A stretch of DNA of 64,000 nt from Acaryochloris sp. IP29b_bin.148 (GTDB lineage Bacteria; Cyanobacteriota; Cyanobacteriia; Thermosynechococcales; Thermosynechococcaceae), in assembly GCF_028285565.1 (NCBI RefSeq), contig NZ_JANQOY010000080.1, positions 1-64,000 on the forward strand, given 5' to 3'. Under the pieces are notes generated by a model. That model saw only the letters and a list, made by a program, of their open reading frames with translations, made no database searches and had not been told where the DNA came from. Both the position numbers and the translations under genes were made by a program. Of this stretch, positions 5,997 through 37,717 are shown piece after piece (position 1 is the stretch's first letter; each line of letters opens with the position of its first letter).

Positions 5997-7346
5997 TTAG
6001 ACATCTGGTGTGATAGTCGCCAGAATCACTAGATCTTGATAATCATAAGAAGGATCACCTGGACTACGGCGTCCCAGCTCAAAAAGAAAAATAACTTGAT
6101 TGTCTGCAATGGTGACCCTTCCATTGGCATCGATATACCCTTGGGTAATGGTGGCAATCGGTAACTGACCGCCAAAGGGTGTGATGTTAGGCAGTGAATC
6201 TCCATTCTGTAGGGTTAAAACACGCTCAGAATTACTATCTGATGATGCAGAAATATTTCCTGTTCTACCAGGACATGTCCCATTAGTATTCCCATTCTCG
6301 TCTAATGTTGATGGTGTTGAGCTACCGTCCACCGATAGTTGAGTTCCGGGGGCAACTGAGATATTCGTCTGGGATCCTAATGGTGCAACGGTAGACAGAG
6401 AAGCCTGGCTGACAAGTTGTTGCCTTAGGGTGAGGCTATAACTTGCTAAAGTCTGAAGAGGATCTCCCCCTGAACCACAAGTTATTTCACTGCCTAAAAC
6501 CTGAACATCCAGTGTCGATGGTTCCAAGATGGTTACAGGGGTATCGTCTGAGGGGGGACTACCTGTAGGGATGCCACCTGTAGAGGTGCCACCTGTAGAG
6601 GTGCCGCCTGTAGAGGTGCCGCCTGTAGAAGTACTACCTGAAGGAGCAAAACTTTTAGAATTACGGGTTGCAACCGTAGTGCTTGCAGTGTAAGAATCTG
6701 AGCCTTGAATGGGAAGATCGTAAACACCTGCATGGAATAGTTGAGCAATTTTGCCAGTGGAGTCAACACACGCTCCAAAACCAAGATTGCCATTCGCAGT
6801 CCAATCGGCATTGGGACAATCCGGGGAAACGCTACTCGCTTGGATTGAATCAATCAGTGGTTCATGGCTCCAGTTTGCGGAGTCTGAAGGATCTGAATAG
6901 GTTCCATCGTTATTGTACTTAGGTCCCCATCTGAAAATGACTCTGGGGCCTACCCACAAGTCATTAGGCGAAGGGGCTGTGTAGTATACGACTGACTGTT
7001 GGCTGTCAGGTATATCTGACATTTTTAGTACGAGGACTGGCTCAGCCCCAGTGGGTAAATTGGTCGTAAAGTTTGGAGGCTCTGGCTCTTGGTCTGCATC
7101 GAAAACGATTCTGTCCGCATGGCGAATTTCGGTGGCAATGAACTCTAAAGACCGATTCAACTCGACCCGTCGTTCATTTTGGGCATTGGCGACCTGACTG
7201 GAGCGAAAGATGGAGACTAGGCCGAAGCCGCCCAAGGCCACCACCCCCAGAGTAATGGCGGCAGCGACGAGCACTTCAGGTAGCGTAAAGCCTTGCGAGG
7301 AAGGCTTTCGATCAATAATCTGTTGTCTTAATAATTGATTTACCAC
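5997..7346 (-). CDS. PilW-like prepilin-type N-terminal cleavage/methylation protein (minor pseudopilin)
   Basis: Class III signal QG|FTLPEVLVAAAITLGVVAL; Gly/Thr/Ser repeat in the middle. Confidence 0.8.
   Translation of the reverse strand: MVNQLLRQQIIDRKPSSQGFTLPEVLVAAAITLGVVALGGFGLVSIFRSSQVANAQNERRVELNRSLEFIATEIRHADRIVFDADQEPEPPNFTTNLPTGAEPVLVLKMSDIPDSQQSVVYYTAPSPNDLWVGPRVIFRWGPKYNNDGTYSDPSDSANWSHEPLIDSIQASSVSPDCPNADWTANGNLGFGACVDSTGKIAQLFHAGVYDLPIQGSDSYTASTTVATRNSKSFAPSGSTSTGGTSTGGTSTGGTSTGGIPTGSPPSDDTPVTILEPSTLDVQVLGSEITCGSGGDPLQTLASYSLTLRQQLVSQASLSTVAPLGSQTNISVAPGTQLSVDGSSTPSTLDENGNTNGTCPGRTGNISASSDSNSERVLTLQNGDSLPNITPFGGQLPIATITQGYIDANGRVTIADNQVIFLFELGRRSPGDPSYDYQDLVILATITPDV
6561..6635 (-). 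repeat. 15-bp tandem repeat (about 5 units) encoding (S/T)TGGT linker
   Basis: Unit acctgtagaggtgcc and close variants repeated head-to-tail; encodes STGGTSTGGTSTGG. Confidence 0.85.
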
Positions 7347-7574
7347 TTTTTTATATATTCTGAATAAGATTTTCTATCGAGATGAATGTCAGTTAGATGG
7401 TAAGTTGAGCGCTGTCGTTCAAGTTATTAAATAGGTTTAGTTAATGTTTTTTTGAAATATTCATTTTTAATCTTAGAAAAGAGTTTAGCTTACTCTGAAA
7501 TAATAGGGAAAGTGATCAAGGCTGGGACACAAGTACTGTTAGAAAAAACTCTTGATAGGTCACGGATGTTTCTA

Positions 7575-10951: not shown

Positions 10952-11557
10952 GTGATCAATTTTGTTGAAGTTGCGTCCATCCTAAGGATCAAGAAGAGAG
11001 TTTATCCCATGCGTCGAAACACCCTATCTTTTGTATTTTATAATCGCCTGATTCGGTATCAACACACAGCAAATCTAAATGCTGGTATGTCATTAATTGA
11101 AATTTTGGTTGTGGTTGCATTGACAGCAATGTTGGCTGCATTTGCAGCCCCAGCCATCACCTTTGGTACCAATCCACTGAGAGATACATCGAATCGGATG
11201 GCCGCCAATTTCAAGTTAGCAAGGGCCAAAGCGATGGCAAAGACCGCTGCCTATCGGATTCGCCCCCTATCCGTTGGTCAAGTCGTTATCGAGCATGCTA
11301 ATAACTGCAACGAAACCACCTGGACCACAGCCTCAGAATTTGTAACAGAGGATCTGACCTTCGATACACCGACCGAAGTGATTTCAGCACAGGTAGATGG
11401 TTCGGGTGTAGCTAATACGGGCTGGAATGTGTGCTTTAACAGTAGAGGCCGAGCGAATCAAACATTAGAACTGACCTTCCAAGATACAAATACCAATCAA
11501 CAACGAACCTTAGAGATTTTTGTGGGGGGAAATGTTGACCTTAGTGAGATTAGTTGA
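10952..11557 (+). CDS. GspH/FimT-like minor pseudopilin
   Basis: NAG|MSLIEILVVVALTAMLAAFAAPAI. ATG at 11009 (MRRNTL) is an alternative start. Confidence 0.8.
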   Translation: MINFVEVASILRIKKRVYPMRRNTLSFVFYNRLIRYQHTANLNAGMSLIEILVVVALTAMLAAFAAPAITFGTNPLRDTSNRMAANFKLARAKAMAKTAAYRIRPLSVGQVVIEHANNCNETTWTTASEFVTEDLTFDTPTEVISAQVDGSGVANTGWNVCFNSRGRANQTLELTFQDTNTNQQRTLEIFVGGNVDLSEIS

Positions 11558-11585
11558 CACAGGTACAGAGAAAAACTCATGAATT

Positions 11586-12071
11586 GTGAAACAGGTTAAC
11601 GTTATGAGCACTAGAGCTAACAGTAAGATTTACAACCATCTTTTAGGTAGGGTACAGCCTAAGAAGAAAAGCGAACAAGGACTCACTTTAGTTGAAGCAG
11701 TAGTCTCTATATTGATCTTTTTTATTGCCCTAGCTGGTATTGTTCCCATCTCTCTAAACTATTCTCTGGCTGCTATTAGAAATGAGCAACGAACTGGGGC
11801 AATTGCCATGTCCCAACAGATTTTGGACGAATTGCGTCAAGTTGATGCTTCCACTTTGCCGGATGGTAATACGACTTTAACAACGTTGCCTTCTGGAGAA
11901 TCATTAACTGATGTTCCATTGATGGGTAAAGAATACAGCTCCCAAATTACTTACTGTCAAACTTCTAGTGCTAGTTACTGTGATGCAAATTCAAGACATA
12001 TCAAAATCGAGGTGCTTAGGGATGGTCAATCAATTTATGAAGTTGAGACTGTCTACACGAAGTTCGAATAA
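11586..12071 (+). CDS. PilV-like (HpsB-like) minor pseudopilin
   Basis: EQG|LTLVEAVVSILIFFIALAGIVPI; overlaps the start of the next gene. Confidence 0.8.
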   Translation: MKQVNVMSTRANSKIYNHLLGRVQPKKKSEQGLTLVEAVVSILIFFIALAGIVPISLNYSLAAIRNEQRTGAIAMSQQILDELRQVDASTLPDGNTTLTTLPSGESLTDVPLMGKEYSSQITYCQTSSASYCDANSRHIKIEVLRDGQSIYEVETVYTKFE

Positions 12072-13062
12072 GGGATTCACCTTAGTTGAGCTGCTGGTAA
12101 CTACGCTGATCTCATCGATTATTTTGGGAGCATCGTTGTCTCTGATTGTTGACCAACGTAAACAGTTTGTCACCGATCAAAATCGGACCCAAGCTAGTCA
12201 GAACCTAAGAACGGGTATGGACTTAGTTGGGACTGATGTGAAATTAGCAGGCGAGCGCTTAGAAGAGGATTTTGAGCAACCTGCTGTGGTGTTGATTGAT
12301 GAGAGCCATAGCAATAACACATCAGATGCAGATGAACTGGTGGTACAGCGAAAACTCATCCCGGAAAAACTAGGTGTTTGCGCAGATGTAGCAGCTGGTG
12401 CTTCTAGCATCACAGTATCCATTGCTTCAGGCTCCGATCTATGTACTTTTTCTAGTAATGAAACACCGACAGCGGATGAATATACAGATCTGCTCAATAT
12501 TTTCCGAGACTACCGTTGTGAGGAGGATGGAACTGCAGGCTGTGCAAGAACGACAGCCCCGGGAGCAGGGAATTGTGATGATGAATGCACTTGGGCTTAT
12601 ATTTATAATCCCAATACTAACTCGGGTGAATTCTTTCAGTATGCCTTTGAAGATGTAGATAGTACCGATCCTGAATTGAACCGCATTTATCTGGGGGGCT
12701 CTTCAACCTTAGCCTCAAATTACCCCGCTGCTGACAACCCAGAAATTTATCTGCTAGAGGAACGGGAGTACAGATTGAATGGTGAGGTCCTTGAGCTGGT
12801 CATTAATCGTCAAAATAGTGAACCACTGCGCTTGATTAATGAAGTCCAAGACTTTGAAGTAACCGTTCAAGCGTCGGGGGCATCTAATTCTTCCTTTAAC
12901 CCTGATGGTGTGCCCACCACAGCGCTTAATTGGCGTGACATTGAGCATATCGAAGTGGAATTAAAAACCAATAACCCTGCTACATCTGATTTGATTGAAC
13001 TTTCAGAAGATAAGCGCACATTATCCTCCAAATTTTTCCCACGTAATATTATCTCCAAATAA
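12037..13062 (+). CDS. PilW-like (HpsC-like) minor pseudopilin
   Basis: Internal ATG at 12037 gives MKLRLSTRSSNKG|FTLVELLVTTLISSIILGASL, better than the 11968 ORF start. Confidence 0.8.
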   Translation: MKLRLSTRSSNKGFTLVELLVTTLISSIILGASLSLIVDQRKQFVTDQNRTQASQNLRTGMDLVGTDVKLAGERLEEDFEQPAVVLIDESHSNNTSDADELVVQRKLIPEKLGVCADVAAGASSITVSIASGSDLCTFSSNETPTADEYTDLLNIFRDYRCEEDGTAGCARTTAPGAGNCDDECTWAYIYNPNTNSGEFFQYAFEDVDSTDPELNRIYLGGSSTLASNYPAADNPEIYLLEEREYRLNGEVLELVINRQNSEPLRLINEVQDFEVTVQASGASNSSFNPDGVPTTALNWRDIEHIEVELKTNNPATSDLIELSEDKRTLSSKFFPRNIISK

Positions 13063-13071
13063 TTTGCAGCT

Positions 13072-15375
13072 ATGAAACGCCAGCCTAAATATTTCCAAAA
13101 GTCCTTATTCCATCTTTATCTGCGGTTGCAGCGACAACAGCAGGTGGAGGGAGGCTACAGTTTAGTGGTCACTGTTGCCATGCTGCTGATCCTATCTACG
13201 CTACTGATCAGTGCCGCCATCATTAGCAAGGTGGATACTGTGAGCACAACCGCTTCCGCCAAAAGTAATATTGGTTTCTATGCTGCTGAAGCAGGACTGA
13301 ATATACGGGCACAGGAAATTAGGAGAGAATTTGAGGGCTATAACCGTCCTTCCGGGACTTCACCTACTTCATGGCAAGACTGCGTGAATGGCACAACAGG
13401 TGCGCAAGGAACACTCGACTTTGGGTGTGATGAAGAACCTTTCCAGGGACAACAAGTCTGGACTTACGTTGAAGAATTTCCGAATAACCCAAGACCAACT
13501 ATCGTTGCCGATGGGCCTTTTGCAGGGCTATCGGCCCAGGAATATATTTATGATGTGGTATCCGTTGCCACTGACCGAGATACGCTTACTAATGAAACAT
13601 CACCGTCTACCATTTTGGGCATGAGATTCAAAAGCCGTTTAGTCCCACTGTTTCAGTTTGCGGCTTTTTATGAGCAAGATATGGATTTTGCCGTTCCGCC
13701 CAGTATGACTGTTAATGGTAGAGTCCATAGCAATAACGATTTATATTTGGATGCCAGTAGCAGCGGCACCTTCTCAATTAATGGCCAAGTCACTTCAGTT
13801 GGGAAGCTCTACCGGGGTGAAAAAATTGATGATGATTGCAGTGGTATTGTCCGAATCGATGATGGATCAGGTTATCGGACCTTAGGATGTAGTGGTAGCA
13901 GGCAAGAGTATACTCAAAGCGATGTTGAATCAGATTGGAATGGCAATATCAATGTTGGCATTGACAAATTAACTGTTCCAGAACCCGATCAGTTTGATGC
14001 ACAAGCTGGCAAACTTTATTGGGACAAAGCTGATTTGAGAGTAGCCCTTGTTTTAGACTCGGGTGGTGATCCAACTGGCATCGAGGTGCAAGACGTAGAT
14101 GGCTCTTCCAACAGCACAGCTACAACCGATTTACGGAGCTGTAGTGCTGATGGTGTTACCACAACATTGCAAAATGAAAACGGTAGTGATGCTAACTATG
14201 AAGCCAACGATACCCAAGTCAAAATAACGAACGGCACAGGGAGCCAGTTTAGCACTGGTGATGTTGTAGTTGTAGGTGATGATATTGACAGCAATGTTAT
14301 TACTTCTGTCACAACTGCAGGTAGCCCTGATCGACTCGATTTTAAGAGGCAGCTTGGACATAGCTATCAATCTGCTTTTCCGAGTGCTGGCGACACTGTT
14401 CGTAAAGCTGTTGTTTCCACTTCTGATACCTTCTATAACTATCGTGAAAAAGAGGGTAGCTCTGGTACAGAGCAAGGTAGATATATCCGCATGTTAGATA
14501 TCAACATGGAAGCCCTGTTCGACTGCGTACAGTCAGAAAGCTTGATGGGGTCTACCAATCTGGATGATGATACCGATGGTGGACTCGTTTGGTTCTTTAC
14601 AGTCAAAGGACCAGACTCTAATACAGATGTGACGGCTAGCGGTAGTCCCAACAACTATGGTGTTCGGATGTACAATGCTGGGACATTAGCATCTACAATA
14701 TCTGGAGCCCCTACCATTCAAGGGTTGACTGTGGTTTCCGATCAAGCTATTTACACTCGGGGCGACTATAACCGCTTCAACAAAAAACCGGCTGCCATAC
14801 TGGGTGATACGATTAATGTCCTTTCCGACGCCTGGAAAATGGACGATTCTAATGGTCGTATTTATAACCCTTTGACAAATATCCCTGGCCCCGAGGACAG
14901 TACTTCTTTTGATGTCATTGTAGGTGCTCTTCGCCAAGCAAGTTCAACTACGATTAATGCTGCCTTTTTGGCTGGGATTGATATTTCTGGCGGTGTGAAT
15001 CAAGGCGGGCAAGATGGTGGGTGGAGTTCTTCTGGTGGTGGATGGAACAACTATCCTCGTTTTCACGAAACATGGTCTGGGGCTACCTTAACTTATAGAG
15101 GGTCAATGGTGACTTTGGGATCACCTCGACGTGTGAATGGTAGCTTTTGTGGTAGTCAGTCCATTAACTCTAGTTGCAACATCTACACTCCTCCAACTCG
15201 TAACTGGGATTACGATACGGATTACGATAATGCTGCAAACTTACCTCCGTTAACCCCCCAAGCAGTTTATCTAGAGCAAGAGTTGTTCCAACGTGAATTT
15301 GATGTCTCTTTCTCAAATAGTGGAAAGCAATATATTGCAACCTTACCCACCATTCAGCCAAGCTTTACGTTTTAA
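13072..15375 (+). CDS. large PilX/HpsA-like protein (hormogonium polysaccharide HpsA / DUF4900 type)
   Basis: EGG|YSLVVTVAMLLILSTLLISAA...GFYAAEAGL N-terminus; SMTVNGRVHSNNDLYL motif; 767 aa. Confidence 0.7.
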   Translation: MKRQPKYFQKSLFHLYLRLQRQQQVEGGYSLVVTVAMLLILSTLLISAAIISKVDTVSTTASAKSNIGFYAAEAGLNIRAQEIRREFEGYNRPSGTSPTSWQDCVNGTTGAQGTLDFGCDEEPFQGQQVWTYVEEFPNNPRPTIVADGPFAGLSAQEYIYDVVSVATDRDTLTNETSPSTILGMRFKSRLVPLFQFAAFYEQDMDFAVPPSMTVNGRVHSNNDLYLDASSSGTFSINGQVTSVGKLYRGEKIDDDCSGIVRIDDGSGYRTLGCSGSRQEYTQSDVESDWNGNINVGIDKLTVPEPDQFDAQAGKLYWDKADLRVALVLDSGGDPTGIEVQDVDGSSNSTATTDLRSCSADGVTTTLQNENGSDANYEANDTQVKITNGTGSQFSTGDVVVVGDDIDSNVITSVTTAGSPDRLDFKRQLGHSYQSAFPSAGDTVRKAVVSTSDTFYNYREKEGSSGTEQGRYIRMLDINMEALFDCVQSESLMGSTNLDDDTDGGLVWFFTVKGPDSNTDVTASGSPNNYGVRMYNAGTLASTISGAPTIQGLTVVSDQAIYTRGDYNRFNKKPAAILGDTINVLSDAWKMDDSNGRIYNPLTNIPGPEDSTSFDVIVGALRQASSTTINAAFLAGIDISGGVNQGGQDGGWSSSGGGWNNYPRFHETWSGATLTYRGSMVTLGSPRRVNGSFCGSQSINSSCNIYTPPTRNWDYDTDYDNAANLPPLTPQAVYLEQELFQREFDVSFSNSGKQYIATLPTIQPSFTF

Positions 15376-16657: not shown

Positions 16658-16706
16658 CAAAGAATCGATGAAGTACTTGTAGATAAAAGTCTTCATCGAT
16701 TCTTTG
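16658..16706. terminator. long perfect hairpin downstream of the 16795 (minus) gene; possible terminator
   Basis: caaagaatcgatgaag / cttcatcgattctttg, perfect 16-bp inverted repeat, 17-nt loop. Confidence 0.5.
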
Positions 16707-16794: not shown

Positions 16795-17781
16795 TTACCT
16801 AACGAACTGAGTTAACCAATTGTAGAAGTTACCATAGTGATTGTAGCTGTTGCTACTGCTGTTGTTATTAGGGTTGCTATTGCTGCTGCAGTTGGTCCTA
16901 TGGCCGCCATAGTTACTGCAGTTGTTGCCACTATTGTTGCTATTTCGGTTATTTCCGTTATTTCGGTTATTTCGGTTATTTCGGTTATTTCGGTTATTTC
17001 GGTTATTTCGGTTATTTCGGTTATTTCGGTTATTTCCGTTATTTCGGTTATTTCGGTTATTTCGGTTATTTCGGTTATTTCCGTTACTTTGGTTGTTTCC
17101 GCTACTTTGGGTGCTGTTTGAAGATGTTGTCGAAGTTGTAGGCGTTGTCGAAGTTGTAGGCGTTGTCGAAGTTGTAGGCGTTGTCGAAGTTGTGGGTGTT
17201 GTAGGTGCTGTTGCACTGGCAATAGTAGTTGTACCCAAAGAAGTATCTACGCCCATGGCAATTGTACCCCCTCTAAAAATTTCAACCTCTGCTTGCTTAT
17301 TACTATTTGCTAGCGTGAGTTTAAGATTTTTATTAGCACTTCCTCGGCTATCAAAACAAACACTCCAATCAGCATTATGGGAACCACTATTTTCAGTTGC
17401 TTCTGTGATTGATACCCCATCATTAAGGGTTAAATCTTCACCAACGAAACTTGATGCTGTTGTCCAATCCCCAGACGCTGCATTACAAGAATTTGCCTTT
17501 TCAATAATCATCTCAGTGCTTGAGCTAGAGATAGGTTTGACACGATAGGCAGCGGTTTGAAACATCGCCTTAGAACGAGCCATTTTTAAATTTGCTGACA
17601 CACGAGAGGCAGAATCTCGAACAGAATTTTGTCCAAATGAGGCGATAGTTGGGAAAGAGATAGCAGCTAAAAAACCCGTGATAGCAACGACCGTCATGAC
17701 CTCAAGCATACTAATGCCTGCTTCATTGTTAGAGAGAGCAATACGAGAATAGGTTTTATGGAGATAGGTGTGGTGGTTCAT
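16795..17781 (-). CDS. GspH/FimT-like pseudopilin with Thr/Pro/Ser then Asn-Asn-Arg low-complexity C-terminal tail
   Basis: EAG|ISMLEVMTVVAITGFLAAISFPTIASFG; tail TTSTTPTTS... then (NNR/NNG)n. Confidence 0.85.
   Translation of the reverse strand: MNHHTYLHKTYSRIALSNNEAGISMLEVMTVVAITGFLAAISFPTIASFGQNSVRDSASRVSANLKMARSKAMFQTAAYRVKPISSSSTEMIIEKANSCNAASGDWTTASSFVGEDLTLNDGVSITEATENSGSHNADWSVCFDSRGSANKNLKLTLANSNKQAEVEIFRGGTIAMGVDTSLGTTTIASATAPTTPTTSTTPTTSTTPTTSTTPTTSTTSSNSTQSSGNNQSNGNNRNNRNNRNNRNNGNNRNNRNNRNNRNNRNNRNNRNNRNNGNNRNSNNSGNNCSNYGGHRTNCSSNSNPNNNSSSNSYNHYGNFYNWLTQFVR
16944..17087 (-). repeat. 9-bp coding minisatellite, 16 units (ttcggttat on + strand; NNR/NNG on - strand)
   Basis: Read directly: head-to-tail 9-mers with sparse ttccgtta(t/c) variants; 144 bp. 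Confidence 0.95.
17126..17197 (-). repeat. 18-bp tandem repeat, 4 units (gttgtcgaagttgtaggc), encoding TPTTST
   Basis: Read directly; last unit has two substitutions. Confidence 0.9.
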
Positions 17782-35257: not shown

Positions 35258-37717
35258 ATGTCTAGACTTCCTACTATTTCTGATCAGCGACTGGGTATGG
35301 TGTTACAGCAAGCTGGGCTAGTGTCAGCCCAGCAAGTGGAAGTAGCGCTGGAAGAGCAGCATCACGCTGGACGCCGGATTGGAGAAATCTTAGCGAGCCA
35401 TGGATGGCTCAAGCAGGAATCAGCTGACTTTTTCGCAGAGGTATGGCCCTGGATCCAAGATCAAACTTGGCAAGAACCCCTGGGACAGTATCTTAAACAA
35501 GCCGCTCTCTTAGATGAAGCTCAAATTCAGGCTATTTTGCGAGAACAGCGACAAACACCACTCAAGTTCGGCACTTTAGTCATTTTGAAGGGATGGGTGC
35601 GAAGACAAACCGTTAACTTCTTTTTAGAGCATCTCGATCCGAAGCAAATACAGGCCATCCGTCAACGTGAGCGTGGCCGTAAAGGGGCTCTAGCGGCTGA
35701 AGCAATTCGAAGGAAGCTGCTGGAGAACAAAGTAGTCAACCCTTTCTTGCTGCTATTAACGTATCAGAAGGTACTAGAGCTAGGCGCCATTACAGCAGAT
35801 GATAGCCGTGAACAAAACGAGTTGTTGCGCCTGGGTCTGGTAAGAACAGACCATCAGATACTGAGACTGGCAACGGACCTGGACCCATTGCTCCTCAACC
35901 CACAGTGGGTTGTTCAGGAACTGAACCAACGTCGCCCCTATAGCCACATCCGGCTAAAACTACTGGAGCTGAGTAAAAAATCTGAGCATCCTTACCAAGT
36001 GCTATCGGCCATCCAAGCCTGGACTGGCAACCAGGCGGATCTAACCCAAATCCTCTATCAAGTTACGGTTGAGGCGAGTGTCTTTATTGAAGCTGGAGAA
36101 GAAGCCACCCAGGTTGAAAAACTAGTTGATGATCACATTCTTCAGAACTGGGAGTCAGGGGCTGCGGCTGAACACTTGCGAGGGCTTCGCGATCGCTGGC
36201 TGAATCACCAGCGTTGTCGCCCCCAATACTTGCTGGATCTGTATGGCCGTATTTTAGAAGAGTTTGATATTCCGGCTGAAGACAGCTTAGAAGAACAGGT
36301 GTTGTTGACGCTGGGTTTGGTGACCCGTCACAACCAGACGCTGAGCATTGCCAACCTCATCTATCGACATGTCTTTAATCATCATTGGATTACTCAAGCC
36401 ATCATCGATGTATTAGAGTCACAGGCAGAGGGATTAGAGTCACAGGCGCTAGAGACTTCAGAGCCGCCTAACATCAGTGACGACGAGTCCGGGACAATAT
36501 CTGAGACCCAACCGTCTTATGACACAGACGACGACAGTCCTATCCCTGTCGTCAAAGAAGAAGCTGAAGACCCGTCGGTCCCAAACGTCATATCTGAGGA
36601 TGAAGAAGAGGATGAAGATAGCAGCTCTTTGTCTTCACCGATAGAACTGGAGGATGCTGACGTCCTGACCACCAATAGCGAGTCAGAACAGTTCTTACTC
36701 AAGATCATGGATATCAGTAAAGAGCTATCCGAAGACGACATTACCTCCTTCTTTGCATCCCCAGCAGAATTGGAGGATGCTGACATCCTGACCACCGACA
36801 GCGAGTCAGAACAGTTCTTACTCAGGATCATCGATATCAGTAAAGAGCTATCCGAAGACGACATTACTTCCTTCATGTCCCCTCGTCTAGACATCTCAAA
36901 GGCTAGCTCGAAAGGGTCCCCCTTTGTCGGCATTCCTGAGGCCAGTGCGGCGTTGCCCGCCCAAGATTCCTTCTCGTTATCTACCCCTGCAAAACCAAAG
37001 CCACGTCGGCAAGCGCTCTGGCTAACGTTGGGAACACTGATGTTGGGGGGAGCGATCACTATTGCAGTCTTCTGGCGGCCATCCAGTGAGATGACTCCTG
37101 TAACATCTGCTCCTTCAACGCTGTCTGAAGGATCCTCAGGAACCCCTCAGTCGGGCGAGAATCTAACACCTGCAGGGAATGGGAATAGCAATACTGCGGT
37201 TAGGGCAGATCAAGCCCTGACGATAGCAACACCGTCTAGCACTCAATCAATGGCCACTCACGCATCCACATCAAGCAGCACGGTTGTGATTAGTGCCCTG
37301 GATCCAACCGTTAAGGTGCCTATTGTCACGACGGGGAGCACACAAAAACAGCTCCTCAACACCTTAGGACTCCCTACTTGGGAGCGGAAAGGATACTATC
37401 CAGGGAGTCGAGCCTTCTTTTACAAAGGGATTGTGCCTGATCGGATTGATTTAGGTTATTTAGTGCACAAGACGACGGGAAAACTGCTGCAAACGGAAAT
37501 AGCCTTCGCCCAATCGGTTCCATTGGAGACCATTCAAACAACGCTACGCCAGCTTTTGCAAGGGACACTCCCTCCGTCTGTTCAAGAGCGCTTAACGCAA
37601 ATTTATCAGCGACGCATTAACCAGCACACTTTTGCAGTCAAAGCCTGGAAGGGTGAAATTCATCGAAACCAAAAGGGCTGGATTTATATTGGTATTTGGG
37701 ATACAGGCTTTCACTAA
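35258..37717 (+). CDS. hypothetical protein: helical N-terminal repeats, acidic linker with 41-aa duplication, TM segment, C-terminal domain
   Basis: 819-aa intact ORF; T2SSE_N/DUF2949-like N-terminus; TM LWLTLGTLMLGGAITIAVFW. Confidence 0.6.
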   Translation: MSRLPTISDQRLGMVLQQAGLVSAQQVEVALEEQHHAGRRIGEILASHGWLKQESADFFAEVWPWIQDQTWQEPLGQYLKQAALLDEAQIQAILREQRQTPLKFGTLVILKGWVRRQTVNFFLEHLDPKQIQAIRQRERGRKGALAAEAIRRKLLENKVVNPFLLLLTYQKVLELGAITADDSREQNELLRLGLVRTDHQILRLATDLDPLLLNPQWVVQELNQRRPYSHIRLKLLELSKKSEHPYQVLSAIQAWTGNQADLTQILYQVTVEASVFIEAGEEATQVEKLVDDHILQNWESGAAAEHLRGLRDRWLNHQRCRPQYLLDLYGRILEEFDIPAEDSLEEQVLLTLGLVTRHNQTLSIANLIYRHVFNHHWITQAIIDVLESQAEGLESQALETSEPPNISDDESGTISETQPSYDTDDDSPIPVVKEEAEDPSVPNVISEDEEEDEDSSSLSSPIELEDADVLTTNSESEQFLLKIMDISKELSEDDITSFFASPAELEDADILTTDSESEQFLLRIIDISKELSEDDITSFMSPRLDISKASSKGSPFVGIPEASAALPAQDSFSLSTPAKPKPRRQALWLTLGTLMLGGAITIAVFWRPSSEMTPVTSAPSTLSEGSSGTPQSGENLTPAGNGNSNTAVRADQALTIATPSSTQSMATHASTSSSTVVISALDPTVKVPIVTTGSTQKQLLNTLGLPTWERKGYYPGSRAFFYKGIVPDRIDLGYLVHKTTGKLLQTEIAFAQSVPLETIQTTLRQLLQGTLPPSVQERLTQIYQRRINQHTFAVKAWKGEIHRNQKGWIYIGIWDTGFH
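36644..36876 (+). repeat. 123-bp in-frame direct duplication
   Basis: ELEDADVLTTNSESEQFLLKIMDISKELSEDDITSF followed by ELEDADILTTDSESEQFLLRIIDISKELSEDDITSF. Confidence 0.9.

Follow-up and report, generated by a model that had tools for sequence, protein, structure and literature searches.

Conserved ends and a wholly different repeat-encoded linker in a pilin-like protein of two Acaryochloris species

Here, we describe a gene for a putative prepilin of the GspH/FimT kind whose product has conserved ends in two species of the genus, while the long linker between these ends is replaced wholesale. The gene lies in a 64,000-nucleotide stretch of DNA (the window) from a draft genome of the cyanobacterium Acaryochloris sp. 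IP29b_bin.148. In this genome the linker contains a 9-bp minisatellite that encodes Asn-Asn-Arg (NNR), and in the sister species an unrelated Ser repeat takes its place. On balance we favor the view that the gene encodes a paralogous minor pilin that would display a conserved, Cys-containing end on a hydrophilic stalk of plastic length, and that the NNR array expanded recently within this stalk. The parts of the gene are the following.

16795 to 17781, minus strand: prepilin gene of the GspH/FimT kind (328 aa, stop codon included) with a low-complexity extension; assigned from its leader, the identity of a paralog and conservation in an ortholog
17245 to 17715, minus strand: predicted mature pilin domain, about residues 23 to 179, with Cys99 and Cys142; 77% identity in the ortholog, Foldseek matches
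17126 to 17202, minus strand: 18-bp tandem repeat, (TTPTTS)x4, forming the first portion of the linker; 4.3 copies with 96% matches in TRF
16945 to 17079, minus strand: 9-bp minisatellite of 15 units, NNR x13 and NNG x2; from TRF, codon reading and a shuffle-controlled probe
16804 to 16926, minus strand: C-terminal block NNCSNYGGHRTNCSSNSNPNNNSSSNSYNHYGNFYNWLTQF, about 40 aa with two Cys; 65% identity in the ortholog

The product begins with a class III leader, AG^ISMLEVMTVVAITGFLAAI (AG^ISMLE), that contains Gly22 and Glu27. All hallmarks of a type IV pilin are present: the leader ends in Gly, a hydrophobic helix is found and the mature protein carries Glu at position +5. The pilin domain ends at about residue 179. 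Next comes a low-complexity linker that is about 100 residues long and has a high content of Thr, Pro, Ser, Asn and Arg; within it (TTPTTS)x4 precedes the NNR array. The last part is the block of about 40 residues with two Cys. The prepilin's own Pfam evidence is the N_methyl motif only (PF07963), which reaches 18.3 bits for the protein alone (cut-off 21.2) and 22.2 bits, above the cut-off, in the whole-genome scan. PF12019 (GspH) gives no match in the tailed prepilin itself. Its assignment to the GspH/FimT kind therefore rests on related sequences and a weak model: an untailed paralog in the window is 49% identical and matches PF12019 with 26.6 bits (cut-off 21), the ortholog matches the same family (E 4.9e-4), and Foldseek gives matches to the predicted pilin domain. 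AlphaFold, with window sequences only as alignment input, modeled the full mature protein and the pilin domain with low confidence (pLDDT 43.7 and 51). The pilin-domain model has helices and then seven strands; the GspH/FimT fold is defined by an N-terminal helix followed by two beta-sheets. With this model (pLDDT 51) the best six PDB matches in Foldseek were GspH/FimU-family structures, namely XcpGHIJK, FimU and EpsH, all with E of at least 0.012 and low TM-scores. An earlier interpretation of this DNA, made from its letters alone (the sequence-only reading), had proposed a FimT/GspH-like protein, and the leader, the paralog and the ortholog match support this identity. The same reading had placed the repeat in a C-terminal tail. 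An extension is indeed present, but the array is an internal linker, and beyond the last NNR comes a conserved block with two Cys. No Pfam domain was recognized in the extension (linker and 40-aa block). The C-terminal block may not fold, because it is rich in Asn and Ser, resembles no known domain and is modeled with low confidence.

Between 16945 and 17079 (minus strand) 15 contiguous 9-bp units lie in phase with the open reading frame 16795-17781, 13 of them AATAACCGA (NNR) and two AATAACGGA (NNG), without a single synonymous difference at any position. The sequence-only reading had counted sixteen such units; 15 are true NNR or NNG units, and the sixteenth, AGTAACGGA at 17080-17088, is a degenerate unit that encodes SNG. 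It is followed by NNQ at 17089-17097. TRF reports the array at 16941-17099 with period 9, 17.7 copies and 92% matches, and a probe of three units has 14 matches in the window versus none in 100 dinucleotide-preserving shuffles. The repeat is thus real and its coordinates had been correct to within one unit; its Asn-rich and basic character is likewise borne out (13 Arg, linker net charge +13), as is the point that a 9-bp unit keeps the reading frame when the length changes. In a DNA-pattern search of 292 genomes of the phylum only the window array was found and none in the other 291. A literature search on Asn-rich or minisatellite-coded pilins gave nothing useful.

The copy number of such an array might in principle be an artefact of assembly, since the source genome is a draft (5.07 Mb in 251 contigs, about 87% complete) and repeats built from identical units easily collapse or expand in assembly. 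We consider this very improbable. The longest stretch of identical units is 72 bp, two NNG variants interrupt the array and its edges are degenerate, so that ordinary read lengths can resolve it, and the reading frame is unbroken throughout. In view of the NNG interruptions and the 72-bp limit on identical runs, gross misassembly of the array is unlikely, although the exact number of units may differ from that assembled.

The strongest evidence on the nature of the linker comes from the ortholog. Among 58 related genomes only one, of another species in the same genus (G002), has a close ortholog of the tailed prepilin, with 77% identity over the pilin domain (computed over query 17190-17781). 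The comparison is therefore one of two genomes; with a single genome for each species in the set, the replacement of the repeat is seen between species. The pilin domains differ with a dN/dS of 0.18 at a dS of 0.75, and the reading frame is intact in both species. The C-terminal block is 65% identical, with an alignment score of 154 versus a maximum of 62 in 1000 shuffles, and it occurs in two of 390 genomes of the class, the source genome and G002. Between these conserved parts the linkers are unrelated. In G002 a 27-bp repeat in 4.9 copies encodes a poly-Ser linker that also contains some Thr, Ala and Asn-Pro. It measures 65 aa, compared to 102 aa in the window protein. Its net charge is +2 versus +13, with a few Lys in GKDKK and NKNKNK. 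Since the linker of G002 is near-neutral poly-Ser and that of the source genome is basic, the basic character of NNR is not conserved; what is conserved is a long, hydrophilic, repeat-encoded linker. Absence of the tail from every sister strain had been named as a refutation, and G002 answers this in part: it has the extension and the C-terminal block, but no NNR. The different Ser repeat between the same two conserved parts suggests that the NNR repeat is a rapidly changing spacer and not a conserved adhesive tail. Recurrent slippage, suggested earlier for the array, fits its near-identical units and the very different repeat in G002. Judged by the lack of synonymous variants in 15 units, set against the dS of 0.75 in the pilin domain, the array is young or continually homogenized; if not homogenized, it would be far younger than the split of the two species.

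The charge of the linker bears directly on a different explanation, in which (NNR)n is an arm that binds DNA or other polyanions and aids DNA capture for natural transformation, as the Arg-rich C-terminal region of FimT does in Legionella. In its favor, this FimT-family pilin has an extension, probably flexible, in which 13 Arg are evenly spaced and the net charge reaches +13. In L. pneumophila an Arg-rich patch of FimT, to which the C-terminal tail contributes, binds DNA (PMC8897410). Both genomes have comEC, and the tail of G002 has its few Lys. However, the tail of the ortholog has a net charge of only about +2, the NNR array is specific to one lineage, and the motif G-[R/K]-X-[R/K] described for DNA binding by FimT (PMC12040237) is absent from the tailed protein and from the untailed paralog, with a single GKDK in the linker of G002. 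We therefore regard this explanation as unlikely. Binding of DNA or polysaccharide by the Arg residues is possible in this lineage, but it would be no conserved property, and the proposal that the basic NNR is a functional feature finds no support in the ortholog. Beside the intact comEC of G002 we observed a second comEC-like match (G002:C1:2655036-2655628) that is apparently broken, in two adjacent pieces in different frames.

The genomic setting indicates where the tailed gene may have come from. Its surroundings in the window are as follows.

10952 to 11557, plus strand: untailed FimT/GspH-like paralog, first gene of a minor-pilin run; PF12019, relatives in seven of seven genomes of the genus
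11586 to 15375, plus strand: PilV-like, PilW/HpsC-like and HpsA-like genes of the same run; weak matches to NCBIfam pilV, EPS_HpsC and EPS_HpsA, synteny in the genus
16658 to 16706, no strand assigned: palindromic hairpin between convergent genes; -31.5 kcal/mol, z -8.3

The tailed gene follows the minor-pilin run (10952-15375) at a distance of 1.4 kb, in convergent orientation and about 5 kb from the untailed fimT-like paralog; in G002 the tailed duplicate is likewise downstream of the run and convergent to it. In three congeners (G001, G003 and G004) the next conserved genes follow the HpsA-like gene directly, and the tailed gene is absent; the contigs of two more (G005 and G006) allow no clean test of its absence at this site. 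Elsewhere in the genus, the untailed fimT-like gene gives the best match, with 36-43% identity to the tailed gene. The other species appear to do without the tailed gene, in assemblies several of which are incomplete. A tree joins the two tailed proteins with strong support and puts them next to the untailed genes of the genus (86/87). The tailed gene and the untailed fimT-like gene of the source genome are diverged paralogs. Given the placement in the tree, the duplication probably pre-dates the radiation of the genus and was followed by losses; rapid divergence may be an alternative reason for this position. A search of the genome contigs for related loci with the pilin domain, and also with a two-row alignment, found no relative, and tblastn in plasmids found nothing beyond remote Thermus and Deinococcus pilins. 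The hairpin at 16658-16706 is probably a shared bidirectional terminator, and G002 has a hairpin at the equivalent position with paired changes in the stem. We also considered the hairpin as a dispersed repeat and rejected this, as it occurs in a single copy in the genome. A promoter scan gave a number of sites not above that in shuffles.

A duplicate that three congeners lack at the corresponding site might also be redundant or decaying, and its linker functionally idle, a product of slippage noise that is simply tolerated. The complete replacement of the linker between the two species and the identity of the repeat units would agree with this. We nevertheless find it improbable. Purifying selection acts on the pilin domain (dN/dS 0.18), neither species has a broken frame, conservation extends to the block past the linker, and the terminator-like hairpin has persisted with paired changes.

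The reading that we prefer remains that of an end block on a plastic stalk, which might work as follows. The pilin domain would pack into the pilus or its tip. The linker would act as a flexible stalk, possibly O-glycosylated at TTPTTS, and would present the end block outside, perhaps closed as a small disulphide loop between Cys288 and Cys298. The NNR minisatellite would be one recent repeat expansion within the stalk, where slippage could alter the length by steps of three residues with the frame kept.

Repeats of this type are not restricted to the tailed gene. Another minor pilin in the window, the PilW/GspJ-like 6000-7373, contains the following feature.

6573 to 6632, minus strand: 15-bp repeat, (TSTGG)x4, within the PilW/GspJ-like minor pilin 6000-7373; from TRF and comparison with G004

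In the G004 ortholog of this pilin (PPGST)n is found between the same flanks. Therefore, repeat-encoded linkers recur in the minor pilins of the genus. One may go further and speculate that the minor pilins of this genus bear repeat stalks (NNR, poly-Ser, PT-rich, GGTST) in which turnover of minisatellites rapidly switches length and chemistry and so tunes pilus binding, with cores and end blocks fixed; in this broad form we hold the idea to be doubtful.

Further low-complexity and repeat sequences were observed on the way. A minor pilin of the source genome, L085 (G000:C26, a prepilin frame of 335 aa), has an internal Ser-Pro low-complexity insert, SPSPSPKSAPS, and the related G002 gene L086 has a run of Asp at a comparable position. 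At 36643-36874 (plus strand) the window contains a near-perfect direct repeat with a unit of 123 bp (1.9 copies, 93% matches). It adjoins an acidic stretch within the frame 35258-37714 (plus strand), which encodes 819 aa without a Pfam match.

The comparison of the two genes suggests that a pilus subunit can retain its core and its exposed end while unrelated DNA repeats rebuild the middle between sister species. If the length or charge of the stalk affects what a pilus binds, turnover of minisatellites would offer a simple means of adjusting adhesion or DNA uptake. The gene pair of the source genome and G002 may also serve as a small and clean test case for the question of whether an Arg repeat confers DNA binding on a FimT-family pilin.

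Several known systems resemble parts of this arrangement. The basic tail had been called unexpected on a pilus subunit. In itself it is not, given the Arg-rich DNA-binding C-terminus of L. pneumophila FimT (PMC8897410). As in the GspH/FimT family, including FimT of L. pneumophila and V. cholerae, there is a class III leader, a GspH-like domain is detected in the G002 ortholog and in the untailed paralog, and the C-terminal region is rich in Arg, which in L. pneumophila is used for DNA binding (PMC8897410). Unlike in FimT, the Arg residues of the window protein sit in a low-complexity linker of about 100 aa that is followed by another conserved block, the protein lacks G-[R/K]-X-[R/K], and the charge is not conserved in the ortholog. 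To join a pilin module to an extra C-terminal part that is displayed on the pilus is a widespread and documented strategy (PMC8179133), seen in PilB and PilC of S. sanguinis and CofB of E. coli. The window protein likewise has a pilin module with an added C-terminal part. However, modular pilins carry a recognized functional domain that is not specific to pili, and here the added part is a repeat linker and a 40-aa two-Cys block instead of a folded vWA, lectin or beta-sandwich module. In cyanobacteria differing sets of minor pilins are thought to set the function of the pilus, including transformation and flocculation (reviewed in PMC12288463). The neighbors of the tailed gene are weakly HpsC- and HpsA-like and in this recall the cyanobacterial clusters of hps pseudopilins and of Synechocystis pilA5-pilA6 and pilA9-pilA12, a likeness rather than an established orthology; the NNR repeat sets the window gene apart, as it occurs in 0 of 291 other genomes of the phylum. 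C-terminally modular pilins (PMC8179133), an Arg-rich DNA-binding FimT C-terminus (PMC8897410) and functionally distinct sets of cyanobacterial minor pilins (PMC12288463) are thus already known. What is new here is, at the level of sequence, a clear example in which the middle of a pilin extension has been rebuilt from unrelated minisatellites between sister species and both ends are conserved.
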